NCBI RefSeq assembly: GCF_945605565.1
Contig: NZ_OX216966.1
Span: forward strand, 4,208,001-4,272,000
Source: Paenibacillus dendritiformis
GTDB lineage: Bacteria > Bacillota > Bacilli > Paenibacillales > Paenibacillaceae
DNA: 64,000 nt
Direction of reading: 5' to 3'
Shown here in pieces: positions 13,509 through 36,600 of the stretch. The notes below the pieces were generated by a model that was given only the letters and a program-made list of their open reading frames with translations, had not been told where the DNA came from and did not search any database. Every line of letters begins with the position of its first letter. Positions within the stretch are counted from its first letter, which is position 1. A program made the position numbers and the translations under genes.

Positions 13509-14057
13509 CTACATAAAATATTTGGCCAATAGCTTGCTGCCTACAAAGGCTCCGGCGAACAAGAACAGCCAGAAAATCCAGCCGGACAGCGACAGCGAAG
13601 AAATGGAGGTGAACAACGCGCCGATATTGCACCCGTTCGCCAATCTCGCGCCATAGCCCATTAGCAGACCGCCTAATGCCGCAGCCACAATTTGCTTTTT
13701 GGATTTGATTTTCTTCAATTTGAATTCCGATGCGAACAGCGTAGCCAGCAGCGCACCCAAAATAATGCCAAGATTGCGTATCGAGCCGCCATCGTTCATG
13801 AATCCGCCGGTTAATGTTTTCTGCGCCTTTTCCGAGCTGAAATAAGCCCAATCGTCAACATTGCCGCCCACGAGCTGATACAGCCATGCTCCCCAGTCCG
13901 CAAACGCGCTCGTGACGCCCCATCCTTTGGAGAAAACGGCTAAATGGGCGATGGCGAAAATCGCGAGCAGCACAGCTCCGGTCACATACGTAAACGGTTC
14001 TTTCAGCAGACGTTTGTAAAAGCGGTTCGATGTGATTTTCAACCAAAATGCGTTCAC
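13509..14057 (-). CDS. YeeE/YedE-family sulfur transport protein (half-size, C-terminal-type)
   Basis: A 182-residue membrane protein with about four or five transmembrane segments. The family signature is LLMGYGARLANGCNIGALFT, with the conserved Cys thought to relay thiosulfate or sulfane sulfur in YeeE. Full YeeE proteins are about 350 residues; here the family is split into this protein and the 229-residue one upstream, each with a Gly-Cys motif, with tusA between them. The start is GTG, with AGGATGGGG upstream. The substrate is inferred from the YeeE-TusA (YeeD) association, known for thiosulfate uptake. Confidence 0.85.
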   Translation of the reverse strand: MNAFWLKITSNRFYKRLLKEPFTYVTGAVLLAIFAIAHLAVFSKGWGVTSAFADWGAWLYQLVGGNVDDWAYFSSEKAQKTLTGGFMNDGGSIRNLGIILGALLATLFASEFKLKKIKSKKQIVAAALGGLLMGYGARLANGCNIGALFTSISSLSLSGWIFWLFLFAGAFVGSKLLAKYFM

Positions 14058-14091
14058 CGCTTACACCCCATCCTTTCTTCCTCACCAAAGG

Positions 14092-14319
14092 CTACTTGGT
14101 CTTCTCGATTACGATTTCCCATTCCCCGTCTTCGATCTCTTCGATTTCCACGTTATGCCCTTGCTTTCTCGCCCACTCCGGAACATTCTTCATCGCGCAG
14201 CTATGGTCGATCGAGACAATCAGGACATCACCGACATTCAGTTCAGCCATTTTTTTCTCCGTTCTCATTAGAGGTACCGGACAAGCTTCTCCCATGCAAT
14301 CAAGTGTAAATTCAGCCAT
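14092..14319 (-). CDS. TusA-family sulfur carrier protein
   Basis: A 75-residue TusA/SirA/YeeD-type protein. The N-terminal motif LDCMGEACPVPLM holds the CPxP element whose Cys carries a persulfide; the second conserved part is VSIDHSCAMKNVPEWARKQG. The ATG at 14319 is chosen because AAAGGTGG lies eight bases upstream, while an in-frame GTG at 14331 overlaps that site. It lies between the two YeeE/YedE genes and would accept sulfur imported by them. Confidence 0.92.
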   Translation of the reverse strand: MAEFTLDCMGEACPVPLMRTEKKMAELNVGDVLIVSIDHSCAMKNVPEWARKQGHNVEIEEIEDGEWEIVIEKTK

Positions 14320-14391
14320 CTTGATAACCACCTTTATCTCATTATTTTTATGAAAAGAAAAACTTTGTGAACAAAAGAACTTAATGCCGCA

Positions 14392-15081
14392 TTATTCGGC
14401 GCTGCCCATCTTCTTCTCCTGCCATTTGACCGAAGCGATATAGAGCAGCAATATAATGAGGAACTGGACGATCAAGGCGCCAAGCCATCCGAATACATCC
14501 GGCAGGAACACCGATGGCGCATCTTTGATGACGTGGGCCCGCCACCAGCCCATATCATGTGCTCCCCAGAGAGAGCCGAGTACGAAGAAAAACAGTGAAA
14601 TCATTTGCATCGTGAAGCCTTCCCCTACGCGCATAAGCGTTCCCGAGGCGCAGCCGCCGGCGATGACCATTCCGATGCCGAACAGCACAGCGCCGATGAC
14701 GAGGGCGAAGCTGATCTGTCCCACATTGTCCATGCCGGGAATCGGATTCCCTTGCATGAAGGCCGAATATTTGATGGCCGTGAATCCAATCGTGGCCAAG
14801 GAGCAGGCAATAAGTACCGCTCTCGTAACCGACGTGCTTCCCGTAATGCACGGGTCCCTCATCGAAGCGGTGAAGCAGAATCGCGATCTTTGCAAAATGA
14901 CGCCAAACGAAAGACCGAACAGCAGATAGACGACCATGTTGTCATTGTACTGATTCAAGTAGAATCCGAAGGCAATGACGAGAGCGGTTGCGATTAAAGC
15001 AAATGGCAATTGGCTCTTCTTTGGCTTTCTAGGTGCCCGGATTCGGGTCGATTTCGTCGCGGGACTCGGAGTTTGTCCCAT
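14392..15081 (-). CDS. YeeE/YedE-family sulfur transport protein (half-size, N-terminal-type)
   Basis: A 229-residue membrane protein with a basic cytoplasmic N-terminus (residues 1-25) and about six transmembrane segments. Signatures are GVILQRSRFCFTASMRDPCI and IAGGCASGTLMRVGEG, both with the Cys residues conserved in YeeE/YedE. GGAGGTGCTGCAAG precedes the ATG. It is the first gene of the minus-strand sulfur cluster and diverges from a LysR-type regulator over 172 bp, which is probably where that regulator binds. Confidence 0.88.
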   Translation of the reverse strand: MGQTPSPATKSTRIRAPRKPKKSQLPFALIATALVIAFGFYLNQYNDNMVVYLLFGLSFGVILQRSRFCFTASMRDPCITGSTSVTRAVLIACSLATIGFTAIKYSAFMQGNPIPGMDNVGQISFALVIGAVLFGIGMVIAGGCASGTLMRVGEGFTMQMISLFFFVLGSLWGAHDMGWWRAHVIKDAPSVFLPDVFGWLGALIVQFLIILLLYIASVKWQEKKMGSAE

Positions 15082-16260: not shown

Positions 16261-17661
16261 CTATAGACCTAATGCATTGGCAACGACGGTGACTGCTTCT
16301 GCTCTGTTGGCGTTCTCTTGCGGGTTAATCTTGTTGTTGTAACCGCTCATAATGCCTTGAGCAACTGCCGTTTCAACAGATTCCACAGCCCACTTGGATA
16401 CTTTATTCTGGTCTTTCAATTTTGCATTCGGTTTTTCATGTTTCAAATCGAACGCTTTGACAACCATTGCGGCCATTTGTTCTCTTGTAATCGGATCGTT
16501 AGGTCCGAAGGTGGTTGAATCATAGCCATTCACAATGCCATGCGCGCTCGCAATGGCAATGTTATCTTTCGCCCAGTGTTTCTCCGTATCCTTGAATACT
16601 TTGCCGTCGGTACCCTTCAGATCGAGCGCTTTGACGAGAATCGTGGCGAATTCAGCTCTCGTGATTTTATTTTTTGGCTTAAACGTGTTGTCTTGATATC
16701 CGGTAATTGCTCCTCTTTGAACCAATGCGAGAATGTTCTTCTCTGCCCAATGTCCATTAATGTCCTTCAGCAGGATTTGCGGAGTTTTTGGTTCTTCTGT
16801 CTTTGTTTCTTTGGCTTTGGCCAATACCGCAAACTTCGCGAATTGGTCGACATCCCCGCTTACCGTCTTATCGGACGCGTTGATGGCAATGTTCTCCAGT
16901 GAGATCCATTCCTTTTTATCTGCGTCCAACCGGTATACCGCCAGCTCGTATTTATCCGGATGGAACTTGGAGATGTCGAATGGCAGCGCGATCGTCATGT
17001 TTTTCGCAAGTTTCTCTTTCGGGCTGACCGTGATGTCGAACACCTCGCTCGCCAATTGCAGATGAGCCGGAATATTCAGTCCGGAAGTGCCGCTGACTTT
17101 TTCCACTTTGAGCTGCAGCGATTTTGCCGCCGCGCCCGCAGGGATATCGAACTTGACTCCGTTCAATGTAAAGGAAGCGCTGTTTGCATTGATCGTTCGA
17201 GTATTGGATGGCGTTGTCGATGAAGACGAAGAAGTGCCGCCTCCTCCACCCCCTCCTCCGCCACCGCCGCCAGAGCCGCCGCTTCCTGGGGTTCCGCCTG
17301 GCGTGCCGCCGTTATCCTCTTTGGCCGTTACGTTAAATGTTCGGGAGGCCGTGTCCGAGCCTTGGCCTGCTACTGCCGTATAATCCCCAAGATCAGCGTC
17401 GGAAGGAAGATGGAAGGTGACCACAAATGCTCCTTCTGCACCGATGTCCGCCACATCTACATAGAGAATCGTCTTGTTCGGACGAAGGACTTTAACGCTC
17501 ACTTCTTTTAAAGTTGATTTTCCCTTCAGTTCGACCGCTTCCCCGGGCTTTTTATTCGCTATCTGCTCCAATGTGATAGCATCAGCAGCAAATGCGGACA
17601 ACGGGAAAATGGTCAAGAGCACGGCCACAATCGTTATGTTTCTCAGGAATCCTTTAATCAC
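16261..17661 (-). CDS. SLH-domain surface protein with glycine/serine-rich linker
   Basis: A 466-residue secreted protein. Residues 1-26 are a signal peptide ending SAFAA. A beta-rich region (27-110) is followed by a low-complexity linker with a run of Gly and then Ser (about 117-150), a second beta domain (about 155-290), and three SLH repeats (about 298-466; for example KDINGHWAEKNILALVQRGA, with ITRAEFATILVKAL and ITREQMAAMVVKAF). SLH repeats bind pyruvylated secondary cell-wall polymer, so the protein is held on the cell surface. The start is GTG with GAGGT nine bases upstream. It is the last gene of the secA2 operon and is separated from the repeat-protein gene by a 15-bp hairpin. Confidence 0.9.
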   Translation of the reverse strand: MIKGFLRNITIVAVLLTIFPLSAFAADAITLEQIANKKPGEAVELKGKSTLKEVSVKVLRPNKTILYVDVADIGAEGAFVVTFHLPSDADLGDYTAVAGQGSDTASRTFNVTAKEDNGGTPGGTPGSGGSGGGGGGGGGGGGTSSSSSTTPSNTRTINANSASFTLNGVKFDIPAGAAAKSLQLKVEKVSGTSGLNIPAHLQLASEVFDITVSPKEKLAKNMTIALPFDISKFHPDKYELAVYRLDADKKEWISLENIAINASDKTVSGDVDQFAKFAVLAKAKETKTEEPKTPQILLKDINGHWAEKNILALVQRGAITGYQDNTFKPKNKITRAEFATILVKALDLKGTDGKVFKDTEKHWAKDNIAIASAHGIVNGYDSTTFGPNDPITREQMAAMVVKAFDLKHEKPNAKLKDQNKVSKWAVESVETAVAQGIMSGYNNKINPQENANRAEAVTVVANALGL

Positions 17662-17745: not shown

Positions 17746-19272
17746 TTATTTTAAAATGACAGCCTTCGCCAACGAGGTTGGGGCTTTCCCCGGATCGCTG
17801 GTGAACTCGTCAAAGACGAACACCTTAACGGAATAGCCTGAACCGTCCACATTAAAATGAGCGGTTACTTTTTCAAGCTCGGAAATGTTTCTTTCCAAAG
17901 CAACAATGCTAATCGGCGTCGTATCATCCTTAACCAGTTGGAACACGACGACGACATTTTGTCCCTCTCCTTGCGGAGCGACATCGACGGAGACGGTTAT
18001 GCCGCCATCCAGAGAGATCGTTCCATTTTCGATGGCGTAAGCCTTATCTTCGTCACCCGGCTCTTCGCCATCGCCTGGTTCTTGTCCATCACCTGGATTT
18101 TGGCCATCTCCTGGCTCCTCTTCATCATCGGTGCCTGGCTCCTCTTCATCATCGGTACCTGGCTCCTCTTCATCATCGGTACCTGGCTCCTCTTCATCGT
18201 CGGTACCTGGCTCCTCTTCATCGTCGGTGCCTGGCTCCTCTTCATCATCGGTGCCTGGCTGCTCTTCATCATCGGTGCCTGGCTCTTCATCGTCGGTGCC
18301 TGGCTCCTCTTCATCATCGGTGCCTGGCTCCTCTTCATCATCGGTGCCTGGCTGCTCTTCATCATCGGTGCCTGGCTCTTCATCGTCGGTGCCTGGCTCC
18401 TCTTCATCATCGGTGCCTGGCTGCTCTTCATCATCGTCATTGCCCGGCTGCTCTTCATCGTCGTCATTGCCTGGCTGCTCTTCATCGTCATTGCCCGGCT
18501 GCTCTTCATCGTCGTTGCCTGGCTCCTCTTCATCGTCGTTGCCTGGCTGCTCTTCATCGTCGGTGCCTGGCTGCTCTTCATCGTCGCTGCTTGGCTGCTC
18601 TTCATCGTCGCCATTGCCTGGCTGCTCTTCATCGTCATTGCCTGGCTGCTCTTCATCGTCGTCATTGCCTGGCTGCTCTTCATCGTCATTGCCCGGCTTC
18701 TCTTCATCGTCGGTGCCTGGCTGCTCTTCATCGTCGCTTCCTGGCTGCTCTTCATCGTCGTCATTGCCTGGCTTCTCTTCATCGTCATTCCCCGGCTGCT
18801 CTTCATCGTCGTTGCCTGGCTGCTCTTCATCGTCGCTGCCTGGCTGCTCTTCATCGTCGTTGCCTGGCTGCTCTTCATCGTCGTTGCCTGGCTGCTCTTC
18901 ATCGTCGCTGCCTGGCTGCTCTTCATCGTCGTCATTGCCTGGCTTCTCTTCATCGTCATTCCCCGGCTGCTCTTCATCGTCGTTGCCTGGCTTCTCTTCA
19001 TCGTCGGTACCTGGCTGCTCTTCGTCGGTACCTGGCTCTACTCCACCACCATCCTGCTCTGTCCCTGCTTCAATATCCTCCACAGGAATATCTTCCTCAT
19101 TGGTTCCCTCCGCGGATACCGTTCCAGGCACGACAGCAACAACCGGAGCGACGGCCATCGTCGTGGCCGCCAACACTTTAGCCGCTGCCAGAACAGTGGC
19201 TGTTGCTTTGCGGCTTCCCGGCACATTCAAATCTTTCATTTCTTCGTTACGTTCTTCTCTTTTTTGTGTCAT
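17746..19272 (-). CDS. secreted acidic Pro-Gly repeat protein
   Basis: A 508-residue protein in three parts. Residues ~1-55 form a signal peptide with a long basic start and cleavage likely after GTVSA. Residues ~75-395 are about 38 tandem copies of an octapeptide of the type (Q/E/K)PG(T/N/S)DDEE, with some nine-residue copies, ending in PGDGQ-type units. The last ~105 residues are a non-repetitive, beta-rich domain (ITVSVDVAPQGEGQNVVVVF). The repeats would give a long, strongly negative, possibly calcium-binding stalk. There is no SLH domain or LPxTG motif, so attachment is unclear. Its place between secA2 and an SLH gene suggests a SecA2-exported surface or matrix component. Antisense frames through the repeat are shadows. 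Confidence 0.85.
   Translation of the reverse strand: MTQKREERNEEMKDLNVPGSRKATATVLAAAKVLAATTMAVAPVVAVVPGTVSAEGTNEEDIPVEDIEAGTEQDGGGVEPGTDEEQPGTDDEEKPGNDDEEQPGNDDEEKPGNDDDEEQPGSDDEEQPGNDDEEQPGNDDEEQPGSDDEEQPGNDDEEQPGNDDEEKPGNDDDEEQPGSDDEEQPGTDDEEKPGNDDEEQPGNDDDEEQPGNDDEEQPGNGDDEEQPSSDDEEQPGTDDEEQPGNDDEEEPGNDDEEQPGNDDEEQPGNDDDEEQPGNDDDEEQPGTDDEEEPGTDDEEPGTDDEEQPGTDDEEEPGTDDEEEPGTDDEEPGTDDEEQPGTDDEEEPGTDDEEEPGTDDEEEPGTDDEEEPGTDDEEEPGTDDEEEPGDGQNPGDGQEPGDGEEPGDEDKAYAIENGTISLDGGITVSVDVAPQGEGQNVVVVFQLVKDDTTPISIVALERNISELEKVTAHFNVDGSGYSVKVFVFDEFTSDPGKAPTSLAKAVILK
18100..19045. repeat. tandem 24- and 27-bp coding minisatellite
   Basis: DNA underlying the acidic repeats: about 38 units of 24 bp (some 27 or 21 bp), all in frame multiples of three. 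Third-position differences give sub-families, with the GGTGCCTGGCTCCTCTTCAT type clustered on the left (C-terminal) side and GTTGCCTGGCTGCTCTTCAT types on the right. Copy number can be expected to change by slippage or recombination without breaking the frame. Confidence 0.9.
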
Positions 19273-19329: not shown

Positions 19330-19746
19330 TTAACATGGCATCACCTCTTTTACCTGAAATACGCGCCACGAATCCCCACTGAACCGCACCAGACTGACCA
19401 GATACATCGCTTTCTTTTCGCCTGATTGATTTTGGTAGAACACTTCCATGTTGCAGCGGTAGACCGGATCTTCGCCTTGCGTGACGAACACTTCATTGAG
19501 CAGGGCAAACCCTTTAGACCAAGCAGGATCAGGCTTGATATGCGGGTATAGAAACTCCTCCGCATACTGATTGACCAGCGTGATCATGCGAAGCTGTTCG
19601 CTCAGCTCAATGACTTCCTTGTTCTGCACCGTTTCATTTTCCTGGGGCTGTTCCGGCTGTTCGATCAAGGTGTCTTTCTCAGGAACTGGTTCTCTCTTAC
19701 ATAACTTTTCACGAATAAGAGAAATAAAAGTTTGCTTCATTGCCAA
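19330..19746 (-). CDS. hypothetical protein encoded in the secA2 operon
   Basis: A 138-residue soluble protein with no signal peptide. The first 50 residues are basic then Gln/Glu/Pro-rich; the rest contains LRMITLVNQYAEEFLYPHIK and a folded region ending SWRVFQVKEVMPC. Its start (TTG at 19746, or ATG at 19740) lies 5-11 bases after the secA2 stop, so it is probably translationally coupled. By position it could be an export accessory factor for the SecA2 route, comparable in context to SlaP of Bacillus anthracis, but I see no sequence basis for homology. Confidence 0.6.
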   Translation of the reverse strand: MAMKQTFISLIREKLCKREPVPEKDTLIEQPEQPQENETVQNKEVIELSEQLRMITLVNQYAEEFLYPHIKPDPAWSKGFALLNEVFVTQGEDPVYRCNMEVFYQNQSGEKKAMYLVSLVRFSGDSWRVFQVKEVMPC

Positions 19747-19751
19747 TCTAG

Positions 19752-22115
19752 CTACCCTACCTTTCCGCTGAACTGCCGCCCTTTGTGAAGCCTCTCTTTC
19801 AAAACGGCATCATATACCTTTTTTCTCACCGTTTCTTCCATTTGGCCATATAGCTTCCAAGCATCTTCCTTATAGGCTTGCACCGGATCTTGTTTGCCGT
19901 ATTTCCGAAACTGAATTCCTAACTTCAGCAACTCCAACTGCTCCAAATGACGCATCCATGCTTTGTCGAGAATTTGCAAATAGACGCTTCGCCATTTTTT
20001 GCAGCATTGGCTTCGATTCTCTAATGAGAACAAGTCTTCCAGCTTCGCATCAAAATATGAGGTGATGATTTGCGCGAGCTCCAACCCGTTGGCAAGCTTC
20101 TTGTCCGAAGCAAAGAGATTTGGCCGCAAGCCAGACTCGCGAGACAACACGGAAATATCCCATTCATCAGGCGACTGTTCACGAGGAGCATGCGTTTCCA
20201 TCCATTGCTGGACATAACGTACAAGATGCCCACGCAGAAAATACTGGATATCCTGACCATCTACCACTTCTTTTCGATGCTCGTAGAAGCTTACTCTTTG
20301 ATCGTGCACAATCGAATCCAGCACATAGACGAAGGTGCGAATTTCATGATTTTGCTGCTCAATCCTCTTCTGAACTCGTTCAATCCAGCGCATAAGCGCC
20401 GGTTCCCTCGTCCCGATCTTTCTCCATTGGATTGTGCTGCGCCATTGCCTAGCTTCTTCAGAAGCGAATCTCTCAATCAGTTCATCTTCCATCGAAATAT
20501 AAAAGCAGGATGAGCCCGGATCTCCCTGTCTGCCTGATCGGCCTCTTAATTGATTATCTATCCGGCGGCTCTCGTGCCGCTCCGTCCCGATGACATGCAG
20601 CCCCCCAAGCTCAGCTACACCCGGTCCCAGCACGATGTCCGTACCTCTGCCCGCCATATTGGTCGCGATCGTTATCGCTCCCTTCAATCCAGCAGCAGAT
20701 ATAATAGAGGCTTCTTTTTCCTCCTCTTTGGCGTTCAGAAGCTGATAGGGCAGTCCTAATGCTTGCAGATGAGAGGCAACCTCCTCAGATTGTTCAATCG
20801 ACGTCGTTCCGATCAATACCGGTTGTCCAATGGCATGCCGTTTTTTAACTTCACGCATGATTTCGCTGTACTTTTCTTGTCTCGTCATGAAAAATACATC
20901 TTCTTCATCGCTGCGCTGAATGGGCTTATGCGTTGGAATGGCGACGATATCCAATCCGAATAGATTCTGAATTTCTTCCGCTTCGCTCCGTATCGTTCCG
21001 GTCATCCCGGTCAGGTATGTATACAAGCTAAAATACTTTTGTATCGTAATCACCGCATGCGTCACGTTTTCCGGACTTAACGGCACATCCTCTTTCGCTT
21101 CGATCGCTTGCTGCAAGCCGTCATTATATTGCCTGCCCTGCAAAATACGTCCGGTAAAGGCATCAATAATGGCTACTTTTTCATCCTTGACAATGTAATC
21201 CACATCACGCTTCATTAATGCTTTGGCGCGCAGGCTTTGCAATAAATAATGGTAGACGTTGGTATTTTCCAAATGGTATAAATTATCAATCATGAAGACC
21301 GTTTCAATCGTTTGAATGCCTCTGTCCGTAAACGTAACCTGATTCAGCTCGCGATCCACTTCATAATCTCGATTCTCCTGCAGCCGCTCGACAAACCGGG
21401 CGCATACGTAATACAGATCGGGCGATGCCTTCGTTTTTCCAGCTATGATTAACGGAGTGCGCGCTTCATCGATTAAGATGCTGTCGATCTCATCAATCAG
21501 CGCATAAGCTAGAGAGCGTTGAACCCGCTCTTCCGGCTTCCGTGCCAAATGATCCCGCAAATAATCAAAACCGAATTCGCTGCAAACGCCGTAAGTCACA
21601 TCTTTCTGATAAGCCTCCTGCTTCGCCTTAACACTTGAGCCCGCAAGATTTAATCCGACACGAATCCCGAGAAATTCGAAAATCGGCTTCATCTCCGCAT
21701 AATCTCGTGCAGCCAAGTATTCATTCGCCGTAATGAGATGCACCCCGTGCCCCTGCAACGCGAACCAATATATGGGGAGTATGGAAGTTACGGTTTTCCC
21801 TTCGCCAGTCGCCATCTCCGCAATATTGCGCTCGGTCATCGCCCATCCGCCCATCAGCTGCACATCATGCAGCGTCTTCCCGGATATTCGGCGAACGGCT
21901 TCTTTGGCCAGCGCGAACACTTCGAATTTCACATGAGGCGAACTCCTGTCCTCTCCCGCTTGGGAGCGCAATTGCCGGGATAGCGACTGCAGCTGCTCAT
22001 CCGAAGAAGAAGACAGTTCGTGATAGCGGCAGTTGATCTGATGGACGATGCGCCGCAATTTTCGTAACTCTGCTGACTGGCGGTCAAATATCCGCTTCGT
22101 GAGTCGGGACAGCAA
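19752..22115 (-). CDS. secA2: accessory preprotein translocase ATPase SecA2
   Basis: A 787-residue SecA-family ATPase. Walker A is MATGEGKT (Lys107), the DEAD-type motif is LIDEIDSILIDEARTPLIIA, and the nucleotide-domain-2 motif is TIATNMAGRGTDIVLGPG with QLRGRSGRQGDPGSSCFY. It ends after the helical scaffold and lacks the C-terminal zinc-binding SecB-interaction tail; with its shorter length this points to the accessory SecA2 and not the housekeeping SecA. The start is TTG with AAAGGAGG seven bases upstream. It heads an operon with a repeat protein and an SLH protein, its likely dedicated substrates. No secY2 is nearby, so it would use the normal SecYEG channel. Upstream lies an invertible recombinase segment. 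Confidence 0.92.
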   Translation of the reverse strand: MLSRLTKRIFDRQSAELRKLRRIVHQINCRYHELSSSSDEQLQSLSRQLRSQAGEDRSSPHVKFEVFALAKEAVRRISGKTLHDVQLMGGWAMTERNIAEMATGEGKTVTSILPIYWFALQGHGVHLITANEYLAARDYAEMKPIFEFLGIRVGLNLAGSSVKAKQEAYQKDVTYGVCSEFGFDYLRDHLARKPEERVQRSLAYALIDEIDSILIDEARTPLIIAGKTKASPDLYYVCARFVERLQENRDYEVDRELNQVTFTDRGIQTIETVFMIDNLYHLENTNVYHYLLQSLRAKALMKRDVDYIVKDEKVAIIDAFTGRILQGRQYNDGLQQAIEAKEDVPLSPENVTHAVITIQKYFSLYTYLTGMTGTIRSEAEEIQNLFGLDIVAIPTHKPIQRSDEEDVFFMTRQEKYSEIMREVKKRHAIGQPVLIGTTSIEQSEEVASHLQALGLPYQLLNAKEEEKEASIISAAGLKGAITIATNMAGRGTDIVLGPGVAELGGLHVIGTERHESRRIDNQLRGRSGRQGDPGSSCFYISMEDELIERFASEEARQWRSTIQWRKIGTREPALMRWIERVQKRIEQQNHEIRTFVYVLDSIVHDQRVSFYEHRKEVVDGQDIQYFLRGHLVRYVQQWMETHAPREQSPDEWDISVLSRESGLRPNLFASDKKLANGLELAQIITSYFDAKLEDLFSLENRSQCCKKWRSVYLQILDKAWMRHLEQLELLKLGIQFRKYGKQDPVQAYKEDAWKLYGQMEETVRKKVYDAVLKERLHKGRQFSGKVG

Positions 22116-22168
22116 TGCTTGACCTCCTTTGCGAACAACTCATTTGGCATAATAACCATTTCCAGGTT

Positions 22169-22196
22169 TTGCTTTCTCTGATTTTTCCATTACAAT
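22169..22196 (+). promoter_or_regulatory. probable promoter of the recombinase gene, outside the invertible segment
   Basis: TTGCTT and TACAAT are separated by 16 bases and read to the right, through the left inverted repeat into the recombinase. Since it lies outside the repeat, inversion would disconnect it from the recombinase. Confidence 0.5.
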
Positions 22197-22197
22197 T

Positions 22198-22223
22198 TAA
22201 CTTCGTACAATATGTGTTGTTCG
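22198..22223. repeat. left inverted repeat (IR-L) of the invertible segment, a crossover-type site
   Basis: Twenty-six bases identical to the reverse complement of 23283-23308. Inside it, CGTACAA (22204-22210) and TTGTTCG (22217-22223) are near-perfect inverted arms around the asymmetric 6-bp spacer TATGTG. This is the architecture of a tyrosine-recombinase crossover site; the asymmetric spacer gives it direction. Confidence 0.85.
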
Positions 22224-22250
22224 CAGAATCAATAAGGAGGAATTCAAACG

Positions 22251-23186
22251 ATGCTTCAGACAGTCTTACGGTTACTGCCCAACTATTCCGAAATGATTGA
22301 ACCTTGCTCCGACGAACAAATTATCAATATGTTTTTGTCGTCAAGCAGCCGTTCTCCATATACAATTCGCAATTATCGGAACGCGATTAACAAATTCCGT
22401 CTGTTTATTGGGAATAAAGCGTTGAAGGATGTGACGTGGAGAGAAATCGAGGTCTATAAAATCAGCCTGGCTCAAGGCTTTTTAAGTCCAAACAAGAAAC
22501 CGATGGCGCCCGCCACGATCGCTGCTCATATTGCGCCCTTGCGCTCGCTATACAATTGGGGAAGTGACGAAAATAGAGGCTTCTTTCCATCCAATCCGAC
22601 AACTTGCGTTCGTGTGCCGAAGATCGTGGTGAACAGCAAAAATCATTATTTAACGGTGAGTGAAGTCCGCCTTCTGCTCGAACAATTAAAAATCCAGGGA
22701 TTCCGTGACTATGTGATCGGAATGACGCTTGTGCTGCTCGGGGTGAGGGTATCGGAATTAATTGCATTGGAATGGGGGGACTTCCACACCGATCCCGAAG
22801 AGACATCGATGTGGGTTACGATAAGCGGCAAAGGCGATAAACAGCGTGAAGTGAAGGTTCCCCAACTATTATGGCGGTTATTATGCGAATACCGGGAACA
22901 AAATAAGGATATGGACGGCAAGCGGATTTTCCCTATTTCCGTAAGACTCGTTGAAAAGATCATCCAGAAAGCCCGTGAACAAAGCGGCTTGAAGAAAAAA
23001 GTAACGCCGCATTGGCTTCGGCACACCAATGCGACGCTTGCTCTGCTCCGTGGCGCTTCCTTGCAGCAAGTGCAGGAATCTCTTGGACACACGCATATTA
23101 ATACAACGCAACGTTATCTGCATACGGTGCAGCAAATTAAGAAGGCCGCTCCCGATTTCGTAGCTGATTCGATTGCGATGAAATGA
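22251..23186 (+). CDS. tyrosine recombinase of the XerC/D type, inside an inverted-repeat-flanked segment
   Basis: A 311-residue tyrosine recombinase. The N-terminal core-binding (SAM-like) domain covers about 20-110 (SPYTIRNYRNAINKFRLFIG). The catalytic domain has all expected residues: Arg156 in LLGVRVSEL, Lys184/187 in ISGKGDKQREV, His244 and Arg247 in TPHWLRHTN, His270 in SLGHTHINTTQ and nucleophile Tyr279. AAGGAGG lies ten bases before the ATG. The gene is enclosed by a perfect 26-bp inverted repeat only 27 bp before the start codon and 97 bp after the stop, and sits beside the secA2 surface-protein operon. It most likely inverts its own segment, acting as a phase-variation switch. Housekeeping XerC/XerD roles are unlikely in this setting. 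Confidence 0.93.
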   Translation: MLQTVLRLLPNYSEMIEPCSDEQIINMFLSSSSRSPYTIRNYRNAINKFRLFIGNKALKDVTWREIEVYKISLAQGFLSPNKKPMAPATIAAHIAPLRSLYNWGSDENRGFFPSNPTTCVRVPKIVVNSKNHYLTVSEVRLLLEQLKIQGFRDYVIGMTLVLLGVRVSELIALEWGDFHTDPEETSMWVTISGKGDKQREVKVPQLLWRLLCEYREQNKDMDGKRIFPISVRLVEKIIQKAREQSGLKKKVTPHWLRHTNATLALLRGASLQQVQESLGHTHINTTQRYLHTVQQIKKAAPDFVADSIAMK

Positions 23187-23203
23187 AACTTACTTGTAAG
23201 GGG

Positions 23204-23232
23204 TTGATCAAATGGTTAATTTTATCTATACT
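23204..23232 (+). promoter_or_regulatory. outward-facing sigma-A-type promoter inside the invertible segment
   Basis: TTGATC and TATACT are exactly 17 bases apart, reading right toward the right inverted repeat. A further perfect TATAAT lies at 23265-23270, though without a good -35. In the present orientation the transcript meets a terminator at 23414 and no gene. After inversion the promoter would face secA2. Confidence 0.65.
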
Positions 23233-23282
23233 ATTTTTTGGGACCTGAATGTAGAATTGAATACTATAATAGCAAAACATGT

Positions 23283-23308
23283 CGAACAACACATATTGTA
23301 CGAAGTTA
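23283..23308. repeat. right inverted repeat (IR-R) of the invertible segment
   Basis: Exact reverse complement of IR-L (22198-22223), with the crossover spacer at 23290-23295. Exchange between the two spacers would invert about 1.08 kb holding the recombinase gene and the outward promoter. No target-site duplication is seen outside the repeats. Confidence 0.85.
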
Positions 23309-23413: not shown

Positions 23414-23450
23414 GCCTGCGTAATTTTTTTGCGCAGGCCTTATTATTTTC
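23414..23450 (+). terminator. terminator facing the outward promoter
   Basis: GCCTGCG pairs with CGCAGGC around an 11-base loop with seven T residues, followed by TTATTATTTT. It would end transcripts leaving the invertible segment to the right. Confidence 0.6.
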
Positions 23451-23546: not shown

Positions 23547-23762
23547 TTACGCCTCTATCGTAATCTCCCACACGCCATTAATGACTTCGTGAACGGAGCA
23601 AACCAGGTTGTTGCTTCGGCAGTACTCGCCTATCGATACTTTAGCGCAGCTATGATCGGTGACGAGCAGCACCTTCTCTCCGCCGCGGATCGCTTCCTGA
23701 TGCTTCTTCAGCATCATCACGGGCACCGGACAGACTTCACCCAAGCAATCGATCTCGATCAT
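23547..23762 (-). CDS. TusA-family sulfur carrier protein (second copy)
   Basis: A 71-residue TusA/SirA-type protein with the motif IDCLGEVCPVPVMMLKKHQE (CPxP) and VTDHSCAKVSIGEYCRSNN. It differs from the copy at 14.1-14.3 kb in most positions outside the motifs, so the two are paralogues, not a recent duplication. No YeeE gene is next to it; it stands alone between the invertible segment and a quinone oxidoreductase and has its own terminator. It would carry sulfur as a Cys persulfide; the partner is unknown. Confidence 0.88.
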   Translation of the reverse strand: MIEIDCLGEVCPVPVMMLKKHQEAIRGGEKVLLVTDHSCAKVSIGEYCRSNNLVCSVHEVINGVWEITIEA

Positions 23763-27661: not shown

Positions 27662-30600
27662 CTAAAAACGATATGCCAAATGGGTTGTTTCGAATATTTC
27701 ATTTATGATGCGTTGAATGACCTTCGCGTTCTCCTCGACAAAACCAGGTACAAGCACCTCCATATGTTGGCCGTGCAGCTCATACTCGACATAACATTTT
27801 GAGGTTGCCTGTTTCCATAATAGAACATCGTGATTTTCAGCTTCCCTGATTGGTGAACTTTCTGCAACCAAGCCGTAGATGTTCGCTTGGACGACCCCTG
27901 TATTTACGAGTTCATTCCAGTACATATGGTAAGCACGCATTTTATTTCTTACTTTATCCCTTGTAACTGGTGCATTTAGAACTTGTTTAAAATGCTCAGG
28001 AACAACCTCCAATAATTGCGTGATCTGATGATCTATTTCCTCAGCCGATTCTTCTTTCCGACTCTTTCGTTTCATCGAGTCTACCATAATGATATCCGAT
28101 ACTTCGTATCCTCTTTTTTCCATTGCTTTAGCAACTTCAAACGCCAGATTGCCTCCCGCAGAGTAACCCAAAAATACATAAGGCGCTTTCTCTTGAATAC
28201 TTATAATAGAATCCACATATTGATCCAGCATATCTGTGTGAGCATAGTTACCTTCTATAAATTCGATAGCGTAGACTACACAGTGGTCTTCAAGATGTTT
28301 GGCCATTTCGGAAAAAGCAATGCCATACCCCAGCGCAGGAGGAAAGCAGAAAACATTCATTAATCCATTTTTATTTAGTTTTATAATATTGCTTCCATTT
28401 CGCTGTTCAAACTTGTTAAACTTTCGTTGTAATAGCTCAATAGCCATTTCTTCTATGGAAGGCATCTCAAATACGACACGAAGAGGAATATCGATTTCCA
28501 TCTCTGCATGAATCTTCTGAGTCAATTGCAGCACTTTTAAAGAGTGCCCCCCAATGTCAAAGAAGTTATCCTTCACGCCAATGCGTGGAAGTCCAAGCAC
28601 CTCTTGCCAGATTTGCGCGAGCTGCGCTTCCACCGCTGTGCGCGGAGTCACATAGTCAGCTCCGGTTTGCATGCTTCCGTCGGGTGCCGGAAGGGCTTTA
28701 CGGTCGATTTTTCCGTTGGACGTCAGCGGCATGTGCTCCAGCTGCACAAAGCAGGAAGGCACCATGTAGCCTGGCAACGCTTGAGATAACGCGCTTCTCA
28801 GCTCGCCTGCCGTCAGCTCTTTGTCCGCGACGATATAGGCGCATAAATACGGCTGTCCGTCTCCGTCCTCCCGCGCGATCACGACTGCTTCCTGAACCGA
28901 AGCTATCTTCAACAGCTGCGCCTCCACCTCGCCCAGTTCGATCCGGTATCCCCGAATCTTCACCTGATGGTCGATTCGACCCAGATACGCGATAGTGCCG
29001 TCCGGCAGCCACTTGGCCAGATCCCCCGTCCGGTACATCCTCGCGCCCGGTTCGAACGGGTTGTCCACGAACCTCTCTTCGGTCAGCTCCGGACGATTCA
29101 AGTAACCGCGGGCCACACCCGCGCCTGAAATGCAGAGTTCCCCGGCTATGCCGACCGGCAGCAATTGATCGTTCGCCCCCACGATATACACCCGATGATT
29201 CGGGAGCGGACGGCCGATCGGCACCACCTTCCCGGCCGGAGCGACAGCAGATGCCGGCCATATCGTGGTCACAATCGAGTCCTCTGTCGGACCATAGGCG
29301 TTCACATACAACACGCGGTCCTGCCACTGCTGAACCAAATCCACGGAACTGGCGGAGCCTCCCGTGATCAACGTTTTCAAGCTCGGCAGGTTGCCCGGAG
29401 TTAAGGATGCCGCGTAGGCTGGCGGTAAAATAGCGGCCGTAATGCGGTGACGGCTCATATAATCTTCAAATAACCGCGGATCCAAAATCGTCTCTTTCGC
29501 CGGAATATACAACGTCGCGCCCGTAAAGAGTGCCTTGAAAATTTCCCAGCACGACGCATCAAAGGACAAGCTGGCGAATTGGACAACGTTGTCCTCTTCT
29601 CCGATGTGCAGCGTGTCTTCAAACAGGAGCTTCAGATTGCACAAGCCGCGATGCTCGACCATCACCCCTTTCGGTTTCCCCGTCGTTCCCGACGTATAGA
29701 TCACGTAGGCCAGATGATCCGGTCCCGCACCCGGCTCCAAGTTCGATCCGGCTTCACTGTACATTCGCTCGTCATCCAGCATCAAGCGTTTGCCGTCAAA
29801 GGATTCACACTTCTGCAAATGGCTCTGTGTCAATAACAGCTTGGCTCCTGAATCCGTGAGCATATACCCAAGCCGTTCCTCCGGATATTCCGGGTCCATC
29901 GGCACATAGGCGCCTCCGGCTTTCATGATCGCCAGCATGCCCACGATCATCTCCAGCGAACGCTCGGCCAGGAGGCCGACGGGCAGATCCGGCCGCACCC
30001 CTTCGGCTCGTAACGTTCGCGCCAATCGATTCGCTTTGGTGTTCAATTCGCGGTACGTCAGTTGGCTTCCCTCGCAGACGACAGCCGCTCGATCCGGTGT
30101 ACGCTCCGCCTGTTCCTCAACCAACTGATGAATCGTCTTGTCGCGCGAATAGTCTGCCGCCGTATCATTGAAGGTCTCCAGAATCTGCGCTTTCTCCTCC
30201 GGGCTGATAATCTCGATCGACGACAGCTTCCTGTGCGGATCACGTGCAATGGCGTCTATTACCTGCTGGAAGTGCCCGGCCATCCGCTCGATCGTTTCTT
30301 CCCTGTACAGCGAGCAGGCGTACTCGATGCTGCCTGCAATTCCTTCGGCTTCTTCTGTCAAGCTGAAGGTCAGGTCGAACTTGGCGATGTGATGTTCGTT
30401 CGGGTAAAGCTTACAGGTCAGCCCCTCGATGCTCACTTCTCCTTGCTCTATGTTTTGCAGAACAAACATCGTGTCAAAGATCGGATTGCGGCTCACATCT
30501 CTTGACACATCCAGCTTGCTGACCAATTCTTCAAACGGATAGTCTTGGTTCTCGTACGCGTTCAGCGTATGTTCCTTGACTTCCTGCACGTACGCCTGGA

Positions 30601-33600
30601 ACGTCTTCTCCCCCGCCGGCGCATTACGTATCGCCAGCGTGTTCACGAACATCCCCAGAAGGGGCTCCAGCTCCGCATGCGTTCTTCCTGCAACCGGCGT
30701 TCCCACGATAATATCTTCCTGTCCGCTGTACTTGGACAGCAAGGTGGTATAGGCCGCAAGCAAGACCATGTACAGCGTCGTTCCGGTTTGCATAGCAAGT
30801 TGCCTTAATTCATCACTTCTCTGCTTGTCGATGACAAATCTAAACGTATTTCCTTGAAAGCTTCGGACCAGCGGCCGGGCATAGTCCGCGGGCAGATCGA
30901 GGACCGGGATTTCTCCGCCGAATACCTCCAGCCAATACGCTTCCTGCTTGCTCATCCGTTCGCGCTGCATTTCTCCCTGCTGCCATGCCGCGTAATCCTT
31001 GTACTGAATTCGAAGCGGCGGCAGCTCCGCTCCCTCGTACAACTGCGCAAACTCCCGAAGGAACAAGCCCATGGAAGCTCCGTCCGAGATAATATGGTGC
31101 ATGTCAAAAAGCAACAAATGGCGATTCGCCTGCAGTTCGAGGAGTCTCACTCGCAAGAGCGGCGGCTGACGAAGATCAAACGGGCGCATGAACTCCCGAA
31201 GGTGAGCGTTCGCTTCCTCTTCCTTCACCCGTACATGCTCCACTGCAAACTCCACATCACGGTGTACCCGCTGCACCGCTTCACCGCCGACCAGTTCAAA
31301 GCCGGTCCGCAACGTCTCGTGACGACGAATCAGTTGGCGGAACACTTCCTCCAGCCGCTCCCGCTCCAACGCTCCTTCCATCTCCAGAACGCCCGGCATA
31401 TTGTAGCTGAGCTCTCCGCCTTCCAGTTGGCTCAAAATGTACAAGCGTTTTTGCGCGGATGAGACGGGGTAATAGGCGCGCTCCTCCGCGATCGGGATAG
31501 ACCGATACGCAGCCTGGTGTTCCTTGGCCGTGATCACTTCCACCATTTGCTCCAACGTCGGGTATTGGAAGACCTCCCTCAGCTGCATCTCGATCCCTAT
31601 CTCTTTGTGCAGCTTGGCCACCAAAGCCGTTGCCCGCAACGAATGTCCGCCGATGTCAAAGAAGTTGTCTTTCACGCTGACGCGCGGAAGCCCAAGCACC
31701 TCTTGCCAGATTTGCGCCAGCTGCGCTTCCACCGCTGTGCGCGGAGCCACGTGGTCGGCTCCGGTTTGCATGCTTCCGTCGGGTGCCGGGAGAGCTTTAC
31801 GGTCGATTTTTCCGTTCGGCGTCAGCGGCATGTGCTCCAGCTGCACAAAGCAGGAAGGCACCATGTAGCCCGGCAACGCTTGAGATAACGCGCTTCTCAG
31901 TTCGCCTGACGTCAGCTCTTTGTCCGCGACGATATAGGCGCATAAATATGGCTGTCCGTCTCCATCCTCCCGGGCGATCGCGACCGCTTCCTGAACCGAA
32001 GCTATCTTCAACAGCTCCGCCTCCACCTCGCCCAGCTCGATCCGGTACCCCCGAATCTTCACCTGATGGTCGATTCGGCCCAGATACGCGATAGTGCCGT
32101 CCGGCAGCCACTTGGCCAGATCCCCCGTCCGGTACATCCGCGCGCCCAATTCGAACGGGTTGTCCACGAACCTCTCCTCGGTCAGCTCCGGACGATTCAA
32201 GTAACCGCGGGCCACACCCGCGCCTGAAATGCAGAGTTCTCCGGCGATACCGACCGGCAGCAATTGATCGTTCGCCCCCACGATATACACCCGATGATTC
32301 GGGAGCGGACGGCCGATCGGCACCACCTTCCCGGCCGGAGCGACAGCAGATGCCGGCCATATCGTGGTCACAATCGAGTCCTCTGTCGGACCATAGGCGT
32401 TCACATACAACACGCGGTCCTGCCACTGCCGAACCAAATCCACGGAGCTGGCGGAGCCTCCCGTGATCAACGTTTTCAAGCTCGGCAGGTTGCCCGGAGT
32501 TAAGGATGCCGCGTAGGCTGGGGGTAAAATAGCGGCCGTAATCCGATGACGGCTCATATAGTCTTCAAATAACCGCGGATCCAAAATCGTCTCTTTCGCA
32601 GGAATATACAAAGTCGCGCCCGTAAATAGCGCCTTGAACATCTCCCAGCACGACGCATCAAAGGACAAGCTGGCAAATTGGACAACGTGGTCCTCTTCTC
32701 CGATGTGCAGCGTGTCCTCAAACAGGGGCTTCAGATTGCACAGGCCGCGATGCTCGACCATCACCCCTTTGGGTTTGCCCGTCGTTCCCGACGTATAGAT
32801 CACGTAGGCCAGATGATCCGGCCCGGCCATCGGCTTCAAATTCGCTCCCTCGGCGCTGTACATGCGTTCGTCATCCAGCATCAAGCGTTTGCCGTCAAAG
32901 GATTCACACTTCTGCAAATGGCTCTGTGTCAATAACAGCTTGGCTCCCGAATCCTTGAGCATATACCCAAGCCGTTCCTCCGGATATTCCGGGTCCATCG
33001 GCACATAGGCGCCTCCGGCTTTCATGATCGCCAGCATGCCCACGATCATCTCCAGCGAACGCTCGGCCAGGAGGCCGACGGGCTGATCCGGCCGTACCCC
33101 TTCGGCTCGTAACGTTCGCGCCAATCGATTTGCTTTTGTGTTCAACTCGCGGTATGTCAGTTGGCTTCCCTCGCAGACGACAGCCGCCCGATCCGGCGTA
33201 CGCTCCGCCTGTTCCTCAACCAACTGAGGAATCGTCTTGTCTCGCGGATAGTCTGCAGCCGTATCATTGAAGGTCTCCAGAATCTGCGCTTTCTCCTCCG
33301 GGCCGATGATCTCGATCAACGATAGTTTCTTGTACGGATCATCGACAATGACGTCTATTACCTGCGTAAAGTGCTTGGCCATCCGCTCGATCGTCTCTGC
33401 CTTGTACAGGGAACTCGCATACTCGATGCTGCCTCCGATTCCTTCGGCTCCTTCGGTCAAGCTGAAGGTCAGGTCAAACTTGGCCACATTATGTTCGTTC
33501 GGGTAAAGCTTGCACGTTAGCCCTTCGATGTTCACTTCGCTTTGCTCCGTATTCTGCAGGACAAACATCGTATCAAAGAGCGGATTGCGGCTCACATCTC

Positions 33601-36600
33601 TTGACACATCCAGCTTGCCGACCAATTCTTCGAAGGGATAGTCTTGGTTCTCATAGGCCCTCAGCGTATTTTCTCTGACTTCCTGCACATACTCCTGGAA
33701 CGTCTTCTCCCCCGCCGGCGCATTGCGTATCGCCAGCGTATTCACAAACATCCCCACAATCGGATCCAACTCCGCATGCGTTCTTCCCGCAACCGGCGTT
33801 CCCACGATAATATCTTCCTGTCCGCTGTACTTGGACAGCAAGGTGGTATAGGCCGCAAGCAAAACCATGTACAGCGTCGTTCCGGTTTGCATGGCAAGCT
33901 GCCTTAATTTCTCACTTCTCTGCTGGTCGATGACAAAGTGAAACGTATTTCCCGTAAAGCTTCGGACCAGCGGCCGGGCATAGTCCGCGGGCAGATCGAG
34001 GACCGGGATGTCTCCGCTGAACACATCCAGCCAATACGCTTCCTGCTTGCTCATCCGTTCACGCTGCATTTCTCCCTGCTGCCATGCCGCGTAATCCTTG
34101 TACTGAATGCGAAGCGGCGGCAGCTCCGCTCCCTCGTACAACTGCGCAAACTCCCGAAGGAACACGCCCATGGAAGCTCCGTCGGAGATGATATGGTGCA
34201 TGTCAAAAAGCAGCAGATGGCGATCCGGCTGCAGTTCGAGGAGTCTCGCTCGCAAGAGCGGCGGCTGACGAAGATCAAACGCGCGCATGAACTCCCGAAG
34301 GTACGCTTGCGCTTCCTCTTCCTTCACCCGTACATGCTCCACTGCAAACTCCACATCACGGTGTATCCGCTGCACCGCTTCACCGCCGACCAGCTCAAAG
34401 CCGGTCCGCAACGACTCGTGACGACGAATCAGTTGGCGGAACACTTCCTCCAGCCGCTCCCGCTCCAACGCTCCTTCCATCTCCAGAACGCCCGGCATAT
34501 TGTAGCTGAGCTCTCCGCCTTCCAGTTGGCTCAAAATGTACAAGCGTTTTTGCGCGGATGAGACGGGGTAATAGGCGCGCTCCTCCGCGATCGGGATCGG
34601 CCTATACGCGGCATGGTGTTCCTTGCCCGTGATCACTTCCGCCATTTGCTCAATCGTCGGGTATTGGAAGACCTCCCTCAGCGGCATCTCGATCCCCATC
34701 TCTTTGTGCAGCTTGGCCACCAAAGTCGTTGCCCGCAACGAATGTCCGCCGATGTCAAAGAAGTTGTCCTTCACGCCAGTGCGCGGAAGTCCAAGCACCT
34801 CTTGCCAGATTTGCGCCAGCTCCGCTTCCAACGCTGTGCGCGGAGCCACGTAGTCGGCTCCGGTTTGCATGCTTCCGTCGGGTGCCGGAAGGGCTTTACG
34901 GTCGATTTTTCCGTTGGACGTCAGCGGCATGTGCTCCAGCTGCACAAAGCAGGAAGGTGCCATATACCCCGGCAGTTTCTTCGAAAGCGCGCTTCTCAGC
35001 TCGCCTGACGTCAGCTCTTTGTCCGCGACGATATAGGCGCATAAATACGGCTGTCCGTCTCCGTCCTCCCGCGCGATCGCGACCGCTTCCTGAACCGAAG
35101 CCATCTTCAACAGCTGCGCCTCCACCTCGCCCAGCTCGATCCGGTACCCCCGAATCTTCACCTGATGGTCGATTCGACCCAGATACGCGATAGTGCCGTC
35201 CGGCAGCCACTTGGCCAGATCCCCCGTCCGGTACATCCGCGCGCCCGGTTCGAACGGGTTCTCTACGAACCTCTCCTCGGTCAGCTCCGGACGATTCAAG
35301 TACCCGCGGGCCAGACCCGCGCCTGAAATGCAGAGTTCTCCGGCGATACCGACCGGCAGCAATTGATCGTTCGCCCCCACGATATACACCCGATGATTCG
35401 GGATCGGACGGCCGATAGGCACCAGCTTCCCGGCCGGAGCGACAGCCGTGGCCGGCCATATCGTGGTCACAATCGAGTCTTCTGTCGGACCATAGGCGTT
35501 CATATACAACACGCGGTCTTGCCACTGCTGAACCAAATCCACGGAGCTGGCGGAGCCGCCCGTGATCAACGTTTTCAAGCCCGGCAGGTTGCCTGGAGTT
35601 AAGGAAGCCGCATAAGCCGGCGGTAAAAGAGCGGCCGTAATGCGATGACGGCTCATATAGTCTTCAAATAACCGCGGATCCAAAATCGTCTCTTTCGCAG
35701 GAATATACAACGTCGCTCCCGTAAAGAGCGCCTTGAAAATCTCCCAGCACGACGCATCAAAGGACAAGCTGGCGAATTGGACAACGTGGTCCTCTTCGCC
35801 GATGTGCAGCATATCCTCAAACAGGGGCTTCAGATTGCACAGGCCGCGATGCTCGACCATCACCCCTTTCGGTTTGCCCGTCGTCCCCGACGTGTAGATC
35901 ACGTAGGCCAGATGATCCGGCCCGGCCATCGGCTTCAAATTCGCTCCCTCGGCGCTGTACATGCGTTCATCATCCAGCATCAAGCGTTTGCCGTCAAAGG
36001 AGCCGCCCTTCTGCAAATGGCTCTGTGTCAATAACAACTGGGCTCCCGAATCCTCGAGCATATAACCAATCCGTTCCTCCGGATATTCCGGATCGATCGG
36101 CACATAGGCGCCTCCCGCTTTCAGGATCGCCAGGAGGCCCACGATCATCTCCAGCGAACGCTCGGCCAGGAGGCCGACGGGCTGATCCGGCCGCACCCCT
36201 TCGGCTCGTAACGTTCGCGCCAATCGATTCGCTTTGGTGTTCAAATCGCGGTACGTCAGTTGGCTTCCCTCGTAGACGACGGCCGCCCGATCCGGCGTAC
36301 GCTCCGCCTGTTCCTCAACCAACTGATGAATCGTCTTGCCGCCCGGATAATCTGCCCAAGTGTCATTGAAGGTCTCCAGAATCTGCGCTCTCTCCTCCGG
36401 GCCGATGATCTCGATCGACGACAGCTTCCTGTGCGGATCACGTGCAATGGCGTCTATTACCTGCTGGAAGTGCCCGGCCATCCGCTCGATCGTTTCTTCC
36501 TTGTACAGCGAGCAGGCGTACTCGATGCTGCCTGCGATTCCTTCGGCTCCTTCGGTCAAGCTGAAGGTTAGGTCGAACTTGGCGATGTGATGTTCGTTCG

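Follow-up and report, generated by a model that had tools for sequence, protein, structure and literature searches.

Tyrosine recombinases of the Xer type exchange strands within a 6-bp overlap, and dif, the site of XerC/XerD, consists of two arms and a 6-bp centre. The Hin/hix system of Salmonella comprises a ∼1-kb segment with an outward promoter at its far end. FimB and FimE, the tyrosine recombinases of the E. coli fim switch, are encoded outside the element that they invert. In the pneumococcal hsdS locus, the tyrosine recombinase PsrA/CreX reportedly lies within the DNA it inverts and is said to shuffle hsdS coding sequences, not a promoter. The respective accounts place Hin within its own segment (PMC5903667) and give the length of hixL as 26 bp (PMC4817059) and of the fim invertible element as 314 bp (PMC5763102). 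In C. difficile, the Cdi2 switch is described as having imperfect repeats of 19 bp and a length of 174 bp, which leaves no room for a recombinase gene; that account gives its recombinase as unidentified and has RecV acting on the flg and cmr switches (PMC9286219).

Here we describe a locus in a 64-kb stretch of Paenibacillus dendritiformis DNA (the window). Positions 22198–23308 of the window are probably a self-contained, Hin-like invertible promoter cassette built on an Xer-type tyrosine recombinase. In the mechanism we propose, the enzyme would bind two inverted sites and exchange strands within their identical asymmetric 6-bp spacer, and the 1.06 kb between the sites, with the recombinase gene in it, would turn round. 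Next to the right site, on its inner side, a promoter would read outward. In the assembled orientation it would read to the right into a terminator, leaving secA2 OFF; in the inverted orientation it would point left and transcribe secA2 together with the genes that follow it, turning them ON. Other members of the family would apply the same switch to HD-GYP and to CheW/CheA/MCP operons.

Two inverted sites around a tyrosine recombinase gene

A sequence-only reading of this DNA had proposed a perfect 26-bp inverted repeat, with arms CGTACAA and TTGTTCG around the spacer TATGTG, enclosing a tyrosine recombinase gene. Each of these points was borne out: the 26-nt arms are 100% complementary and separated by 1059 nt, spacer and arms are as that reading gave them, and the recombinase gene is the sole sizeable one within the repeat (Table 1). 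The cassette thus has an inverted pair of sites with an identical asymmetric spacer, the feature by which an invertible switch was recognized. No further copy of the repeat was found in the window at ≤3 mismatches (mean of 0.00 in 100 shuffles), nor was the 24-nt site core found elsewhere in the 6.72-Mb single-contig genome at ≤3 mismatches. A half-site at 22130–22143 was treated as a chance match; its sequence differs in sister species.

Table 1. Features of the cassette and its neighbourhood, in window coordinates
Feature	Position	Strand	Basis
Left crossover site, 26-bp inverted repeat, spacer TATGTG	22198..22223	+	Repeat search, family alignment
Right crossover site, exact reverse complement of the left	23283..23308	-	Repeat search, family alignment
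Xer-like tyrosine recombinase, 311 aa, catalytic R166 K194 H254 R257 H280 Y289	22251..23186	+	ORF, domain and family alignment
Recombinase ribosome-binding site GGAGG, immediately inside the left site	22236..22240	+	By eye; relatives similar
Weak candidate recombinase promoter TTTCCA-16-TACAAT, -10 within the left site	22184..22211	+	Consensus match only, at about shuffle frequency
Predicted invertible promoter TTGATC-17-TATACT, outward across the right site	23204..23232	+	Hexamers identical in 4/4 secA2 species
Intrinsic-terminator-like hairpin, would stop promoter transcription in the present (OFF) orientation	23414..23438	+	Sequence scan
secA2, 787 aa, predicted target once the cassette flips	19752..22115	-	ORF, domain and NCBIfam profiles, genus comparison
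138-aa protein downstream of secA2, without Pfam or NCBIfam match	19330..19746	-	ORF, profile search
508-aa acidic repeat protein, possible SecA2 substrate	17746..19272	-	ORF, profile search
466-aa protein with SLH domains	16261..17661	-	ORF, Pfam

The enzyme matches PF00589 (Phage_integrase) with an E value of 4.4e-25 and carries the catalytic R-K-H-R-H/W-Y set, which places it among the tyrosine recombinases; at E ≤ 0.001 tyrosine integrase families alone match it, and no serine resolvase catalytic domain was found. The sequence-only reading was right that all catalytic residues are present, but its numbering was 10 too low when counted from the start at 22251. These six residues are identical in all 113 aligned family members. 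Scores against the NCBIfam Xer profiles all fall below the cut-offs (157 of 220 bits for XerA, 139 of 335 for XerC and 125 of 330 for XerD), and the recombinase does not belong with the FimB and FimE invertases either (37 and 30 bits, with cut-offs of 222 and 221). Its best match among solved structures is XerA 5hxy. The full-length gene is present once in the genome; four other matches are 27–47% identical (one of them a 122-aa frame), and no comparable repeat was found around these four (inverted-repeat scores of 8–11, compared to 26 for the cassette). Because the ribosome-binding site follows the left site directly, the promoter of the recombinase would have to overlap that site or lie outside it.

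The secA2 neighbourhood and the predicted promoter

For the 787-aa SecA beside the cassette, the best model is SecA2_Bac_anthr at 925 bits, under its cut-off of 1085, while three general SecA models were passed. We call the gene secA2 because that model scores best and because the gene encodes the second SecA of the genome. Of the secA2/S-layer operon that the sequence-only reading had placed here, the second SecA and, further down, a protein with SLH domains were recovered. secA2 was found in exactly the four of 19 genomes of the genus that have the cassette; the other 15 have a single SecA, 41–43% identical to secA2 and of the type common to all 19. As a partner it is specific to this clade; the sequence-only reading missed that the usual neighbour in the Paenibacillaceae is an HD-GYP gene or a chemosensory operon.

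Other genes nearby were noted. The 508-aa protein consists mostly of acidic PG.DDEEQ-type repeats and has no Pfam family; cassette-adjacent relatives are 670 aa (L060) and 477 aa (L062) long, with none among the L061 frames listed. A 71-aa protein with a CPVP motif (23547–23762, minus strand) is presumably TusA-like. Also on the minus strand, two half-size membrane-like proteins are encoded at 13509–15081, the first of which (13509–14057) has a Sulf_transp domain, and a 4384-aa frame at 27662–40816 resembles, by eye, a peptide synthetase of several modules, some of them repeated in nearly identical form.

At 108 loci of the family we scanned for promoter elements between the right site and a point 30 nt ahead of the recombinase stop. 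TATAAT occurs outward at 82 of them and inward at 7 (shuffles: mean 18, maximum 31), and CTATAAT outward at 61 and inward at 3 (shuffles: 2.8, at most 9). TTGWWW-17-TATAAT was seen by eye in several relatives. An exact outward TATAAT is missing at 26/108 loci, including the three secA2 sisters, for which the aligned TATACT was used. The counterpart in the window was picked after inspection of relatives and has 9 of 12 consensus bases, in a scan that returned 4 promoter-like sites versus 3.0 expected. A second TATAAT-like motif near 23266 was dropped as a promoter, as it is not conserved in the sisters L060–L062. A promoter within the segment that reads outward is predicted; after inversion, the leader to secA2 would be ∼150 nt by arithmetic.

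The serious rival concerns the window clade itself. The family may switch while the cassette of this clade is a frozen copy and secA2 is expressed from a different promoter or from none. The orientation is the same, the predicted OFF one, in all four secA2 genomes, and exactly two sites were found in the window genome and in each of its three sisters, with no third site or junction. The 9/12 match of the promoter points the same way. Against this, the recombinases of the three sisters (L060–L062) are 95–96% identical to the window copy and free of stops, the sites are still matched with identical spacers, and the promoter hexamers are the same in all four species. Moreover, no site above the scan threshold faces secA2 between that gene and the cassette. 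On these grounds a frozen copy seems to us unlikely, though it deserves more weight than any other alternative. We favour a working cassette in the window clade, where switching and control of secA2 are inferred from the family. That inversion changes secA2 transcription, as the sequence-only reading suggested, is plausible because the promoter-like element kept in 4/4 secA2 species would face secA2 after inversion; the single orientation in those genomes speaks against it.

The cassette family and its inversions

Homologues of the recombinase (E ≤ 1e-60) occur in 83 of 394 Paenibacillaceae genomes, including that of the window, at 93 places, and in 4 of the 19 genomes of its genus. Among 398 Bacilli drawn class-wide, 24 genomes have homologues, 18 of them outside the window's family. 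We examined 115 loci (113 distinct): the window, 92 other Paenibacillaceae places, 4 further loci and 18 named ones. A first scan found a tight inverted repeat (score ≥15) on both sides of the gene at 108/113. In control pairings across loci, 127/150 scored ≤14, and the rest reached 15–28 because the sites are related. At L094, L106 and L129 the repeats lie just beyond the first scan window, so that inverted sites surround the recombinase at 111 of the 113 distinct loci. L152 has no site pair and a single degenerate site-like match. In the class-wide set, repeats (score ≥17) were found at 17 of 19 loci; at one exception (L165) N covers the position, and the other (L184) is a broken copy without repeats. 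Class-wide locus L166 is the same locus as L032.

Several loci depart from the common layout. At L068:4001-4243 (G103), two inverted sites stand 217 bp apart, both upstream of the recombinase and not around it; such a small switch with the enzyme outside is a possible intermediate toward fim-like layouts. The inverted repeat at L083 (G071) is 60 bp long and includes an ATG and following codons at both ends. Two genomes have a second, broken recombinase copy that contains stop codons, at G428:C85:62569-63357, 1.2 kb from the intact copy, and at G465:C1:2791948-2792520, far from it.

The sites of 114 of 131 loci fit one register, with the consensus TGTCGTACAA-N6-TTRTNCGACA; the 114 include L185 (a broken gene copy) and L183 (partial). 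Of the 17 out of register, 10 have a repeat unlike the pattern and 7 have none or N, although 3 of these 7 were later found to have a repeat. The 6-bp spacer is identical between the two copies at all 114 in-register loci, with 44 different spacers, none palindromic. The arms of these loci contain 164 within-locus mismatches, none of them at the two arm positions adjoining the spacer. One caveat is that site pairs were chosen by similarity, which favours identity somewhat; the contrast between spacer and arm is the informative part. An invariant spacer beside varying arms is the expected trace of tyrosine-recombinase exchange within a 6-bp overlap.

On a FastTree tree taken without support values, at least 12 reversals of cassette orientation were counted. 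When flanking DNA was compared between loci, both flanks were alike in 224 pairs, both swapped in 16 and one swapped in 146, the pairs not being independent. The best same-locus inversion, between L086 and L090, has 83–86% DNA identity over ∼3.8 kb per side; here, the outer arm of each site keeps to its flank though the cassette has turned, which indicates exchange inside the site. The excess of pairs in the same orientation (224 versus 16 swapped) counts against a switch.

Both junctions were seen within single assemblies. We inspected four draft genomes with contig ends near the cassette (G093, G100, G308 and G310), of which three were informative; in G093 there was no match to the site pattern used. 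In G100, the 5' end of the recombinase meets the left flank on contig C2. On C20, a contig that stops 45 nt beyond the site, it meets right-flank-like DNA that shares 93% identity over 1356 nt with the right flank of L114, a related locus. G308 has a third site, ahead of a gap of N, at which the recombinase 5' end adjoins another flank; over 818 nt this flank shares 70% identity with the non-HD flank of L089. In G310, one flank is joined to both cassette ends, as a repeat of 92 nt that extends to the end of the contig. Mixed populations are the best explanation of these junctions; an assembly error is possible in each. The sequence-only reading had called for a search for both orientations in related genomes and had the enzyme inverting a segment that contains its own gene. 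Both orientations do occur in the family, as same-locus inversions between species and on either side of the neighbouring gene (below), and sites, spacers, swapped loci and the three assemblies together lend strong support to such inversion.

Inversion could be real and yet be carried out by host XerC/XerD or by RecA, the enclosed gene being a passenger. The site is dif-like in form, with two arms and a 6-bp centre. This explanation is improbable, however, given that the catalytic residues are kept in 113/113 and that the recombinase is linked to sites at 111/113 loci. For RecA, 26-bp repeats are short, and a spacer that stays constant while the arms vary agrees with site-specific exchange. 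We therefore retain the enclosed recombinase as the likely agent.

At 84/113 loci, an HD-GYP gene that is directed away from the cassette begins no more than 800 nt from the recombinase gene, on the 5' side of the recombinase at 61 and on the 3' side at 23; L151 has a second HD-GYP gene, pointing in. HHExxxGxGYP is present in 89 of 92 such HD frames and a strict HDxGK in 80 of 92. At many loci without an adjacent HD-GYP gene there are CheW, CheA or MCP genes instead (by eye, with Pfam for L028, L032 and L033 only). In the class-wide set, an HD-GYP gene lies within 1.5-kb flanks at 3 of 19 loci, and that of L167 points at the cassette, a second observation that counts against a switch.

The switch might control the expression of the recombinase alone, with the neighbours as bystanders; there is little promoter room inside the left site, and transcription of the recombinase may depend on the flank it faces. 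We regard this as very improbable in view of the -10 element that faces outward at the other end and of the fixed direction of the adjacent HD-GYP gene, two features that together point to the neighbour as the target of the switch. Least probable of all, the repeats could be the terminal repeats of a small, dispersed tyrosine-recombinase transposon that jumps or excises and does not invert, since a recombinase between inverted repeats resembles a minimal transposon and nine genomes (G060, G078, G083, G093, G107, G108, G109, G118 and G312) hold two to three cassettes each, but we rejected it on copy number (one cassette in the window genome), on the scans of plasmids (one match of 32% identity in 72,556 records, E ≤ 1e-30), phages (one of 33% in 50,697 records, E ≤ 1e-20) and viral contigs (no match, in a scan sensitive to close relatives only), and on a neighbourhood that is kept between related species while orientation changes. 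Nor do the copies behave like a spreading element: in 9/9 of these multi-cassette genomes the cassettes of one genome carry different sites, as if mutually insulated. A switch that acts on neighbouring genes is thus the reading we carry forward.

Meaning and comparison with known systems

On balance, we lean towards the view that Bacilli keep, by vertical descent, a plug-in class of self-encoded promoter flippers, each combining one Xer-like recombinase with a pair of sites and a single outward promoter, and with a 6-bp spacer of its own at each locus that would prevent cross-reaction between switches in the same cell. In the Paenibacillaceae these would mostly serve HD-GYP and chemosensory genes and produce a random motile/sessile split; in the window clade they would serve SecA2/S-layer export. 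One recombinase family gives roughly one in five of the sampled Paenibacillaceae (83/394) a likely switch, and in this Paenibacillaceae-rich set the cassette stands mostly before c-di-GMP or chemotaxis genes (HD-GYP at 84/113 loci). As a compact module whose spacer may set specificity, it could serve as a genetic memory part. For comparison, a survey of 209 sequencing sets is described as having found inversion signatures in 15 Firmicutes species, one of them in the Bacilli (PMC5903667).

If such a class exists, it becomes a candidate for what causes the unexplained colony-phase variation of Paenibacillus. Genome G147 (group g6) has the cassette beside an HD-GYP gene in the predicted OFF orientation, as do all four g6 loci (L069–L072). 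Its beta-glucosidase is identical at 424/439 positions to 1bga, which we take to be P. polymyxa BglA, and the P. polymyxa complex therefore very likely carries the cassette. Spontaneous B/F colony variation is described in P. polymyxa, with flagellar and chemotaxis genes up in F and the cause left open in these accounts (PMC3694910, PMC7538429, PMC11322358). In one of the three studies F did not revert to B on plates, which argues against a simple link between the cassette and B/F, and one of the papers cites work presuming no genetic alteration. The cassette makes this puzzle testable.

We found no earlier description of this cassette family in the open-licence literature searched. Hin/hix resembles it most in layout, with the recombinase inside a ∼1-kb segment, 26-bp inverted sites and an outward promoter at the far end. 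Hin, however, belongs to the serine recombinases, an unrelated class of enzyme, and works with Fis and an enhancer, whereas the cassette has a tyrosine recombinase, sites with a 6-bp spacer and other targets; the shared layout is likely convergent. XerC/XerD-dif and archaeal XerA show the best family resemblance, and their sites too have two arms and a 6-bp centre, but the XerC/XerD system has one dif where the cassette has two inverted sites around its own gene, and the Xer cut-offs are not reached. The fim switch likewise has tyrosine recombinases inverting a promoter between short repeats, with the difference that the cassette recombinase is encoded inside. PsrA/CreX is like the cassette in that the recombinase reportedly lies in the DNA that it inverts, and differs in that hsdS coding sequence is said to be shuffled instead of a promoter. 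IntXO-PSL, from a Bacillus plasmid, was set aside, as the available description presents deletion and insertion tools with no mention there of inversion (PMC5567495). The pdcB/pdcC and RecV switches of C. difficile share short inverted repeats and, upstream of a c-di-GMP phosphodiesterase gene, an invertible promoter; as described, the pdcB switch has no recombinase inside, and PdcB is an EAL protein, whereas HD-GYP proteins are encoded beside the cassettes, but in the type of neighbour the two systems run parallel (PMC9286219).
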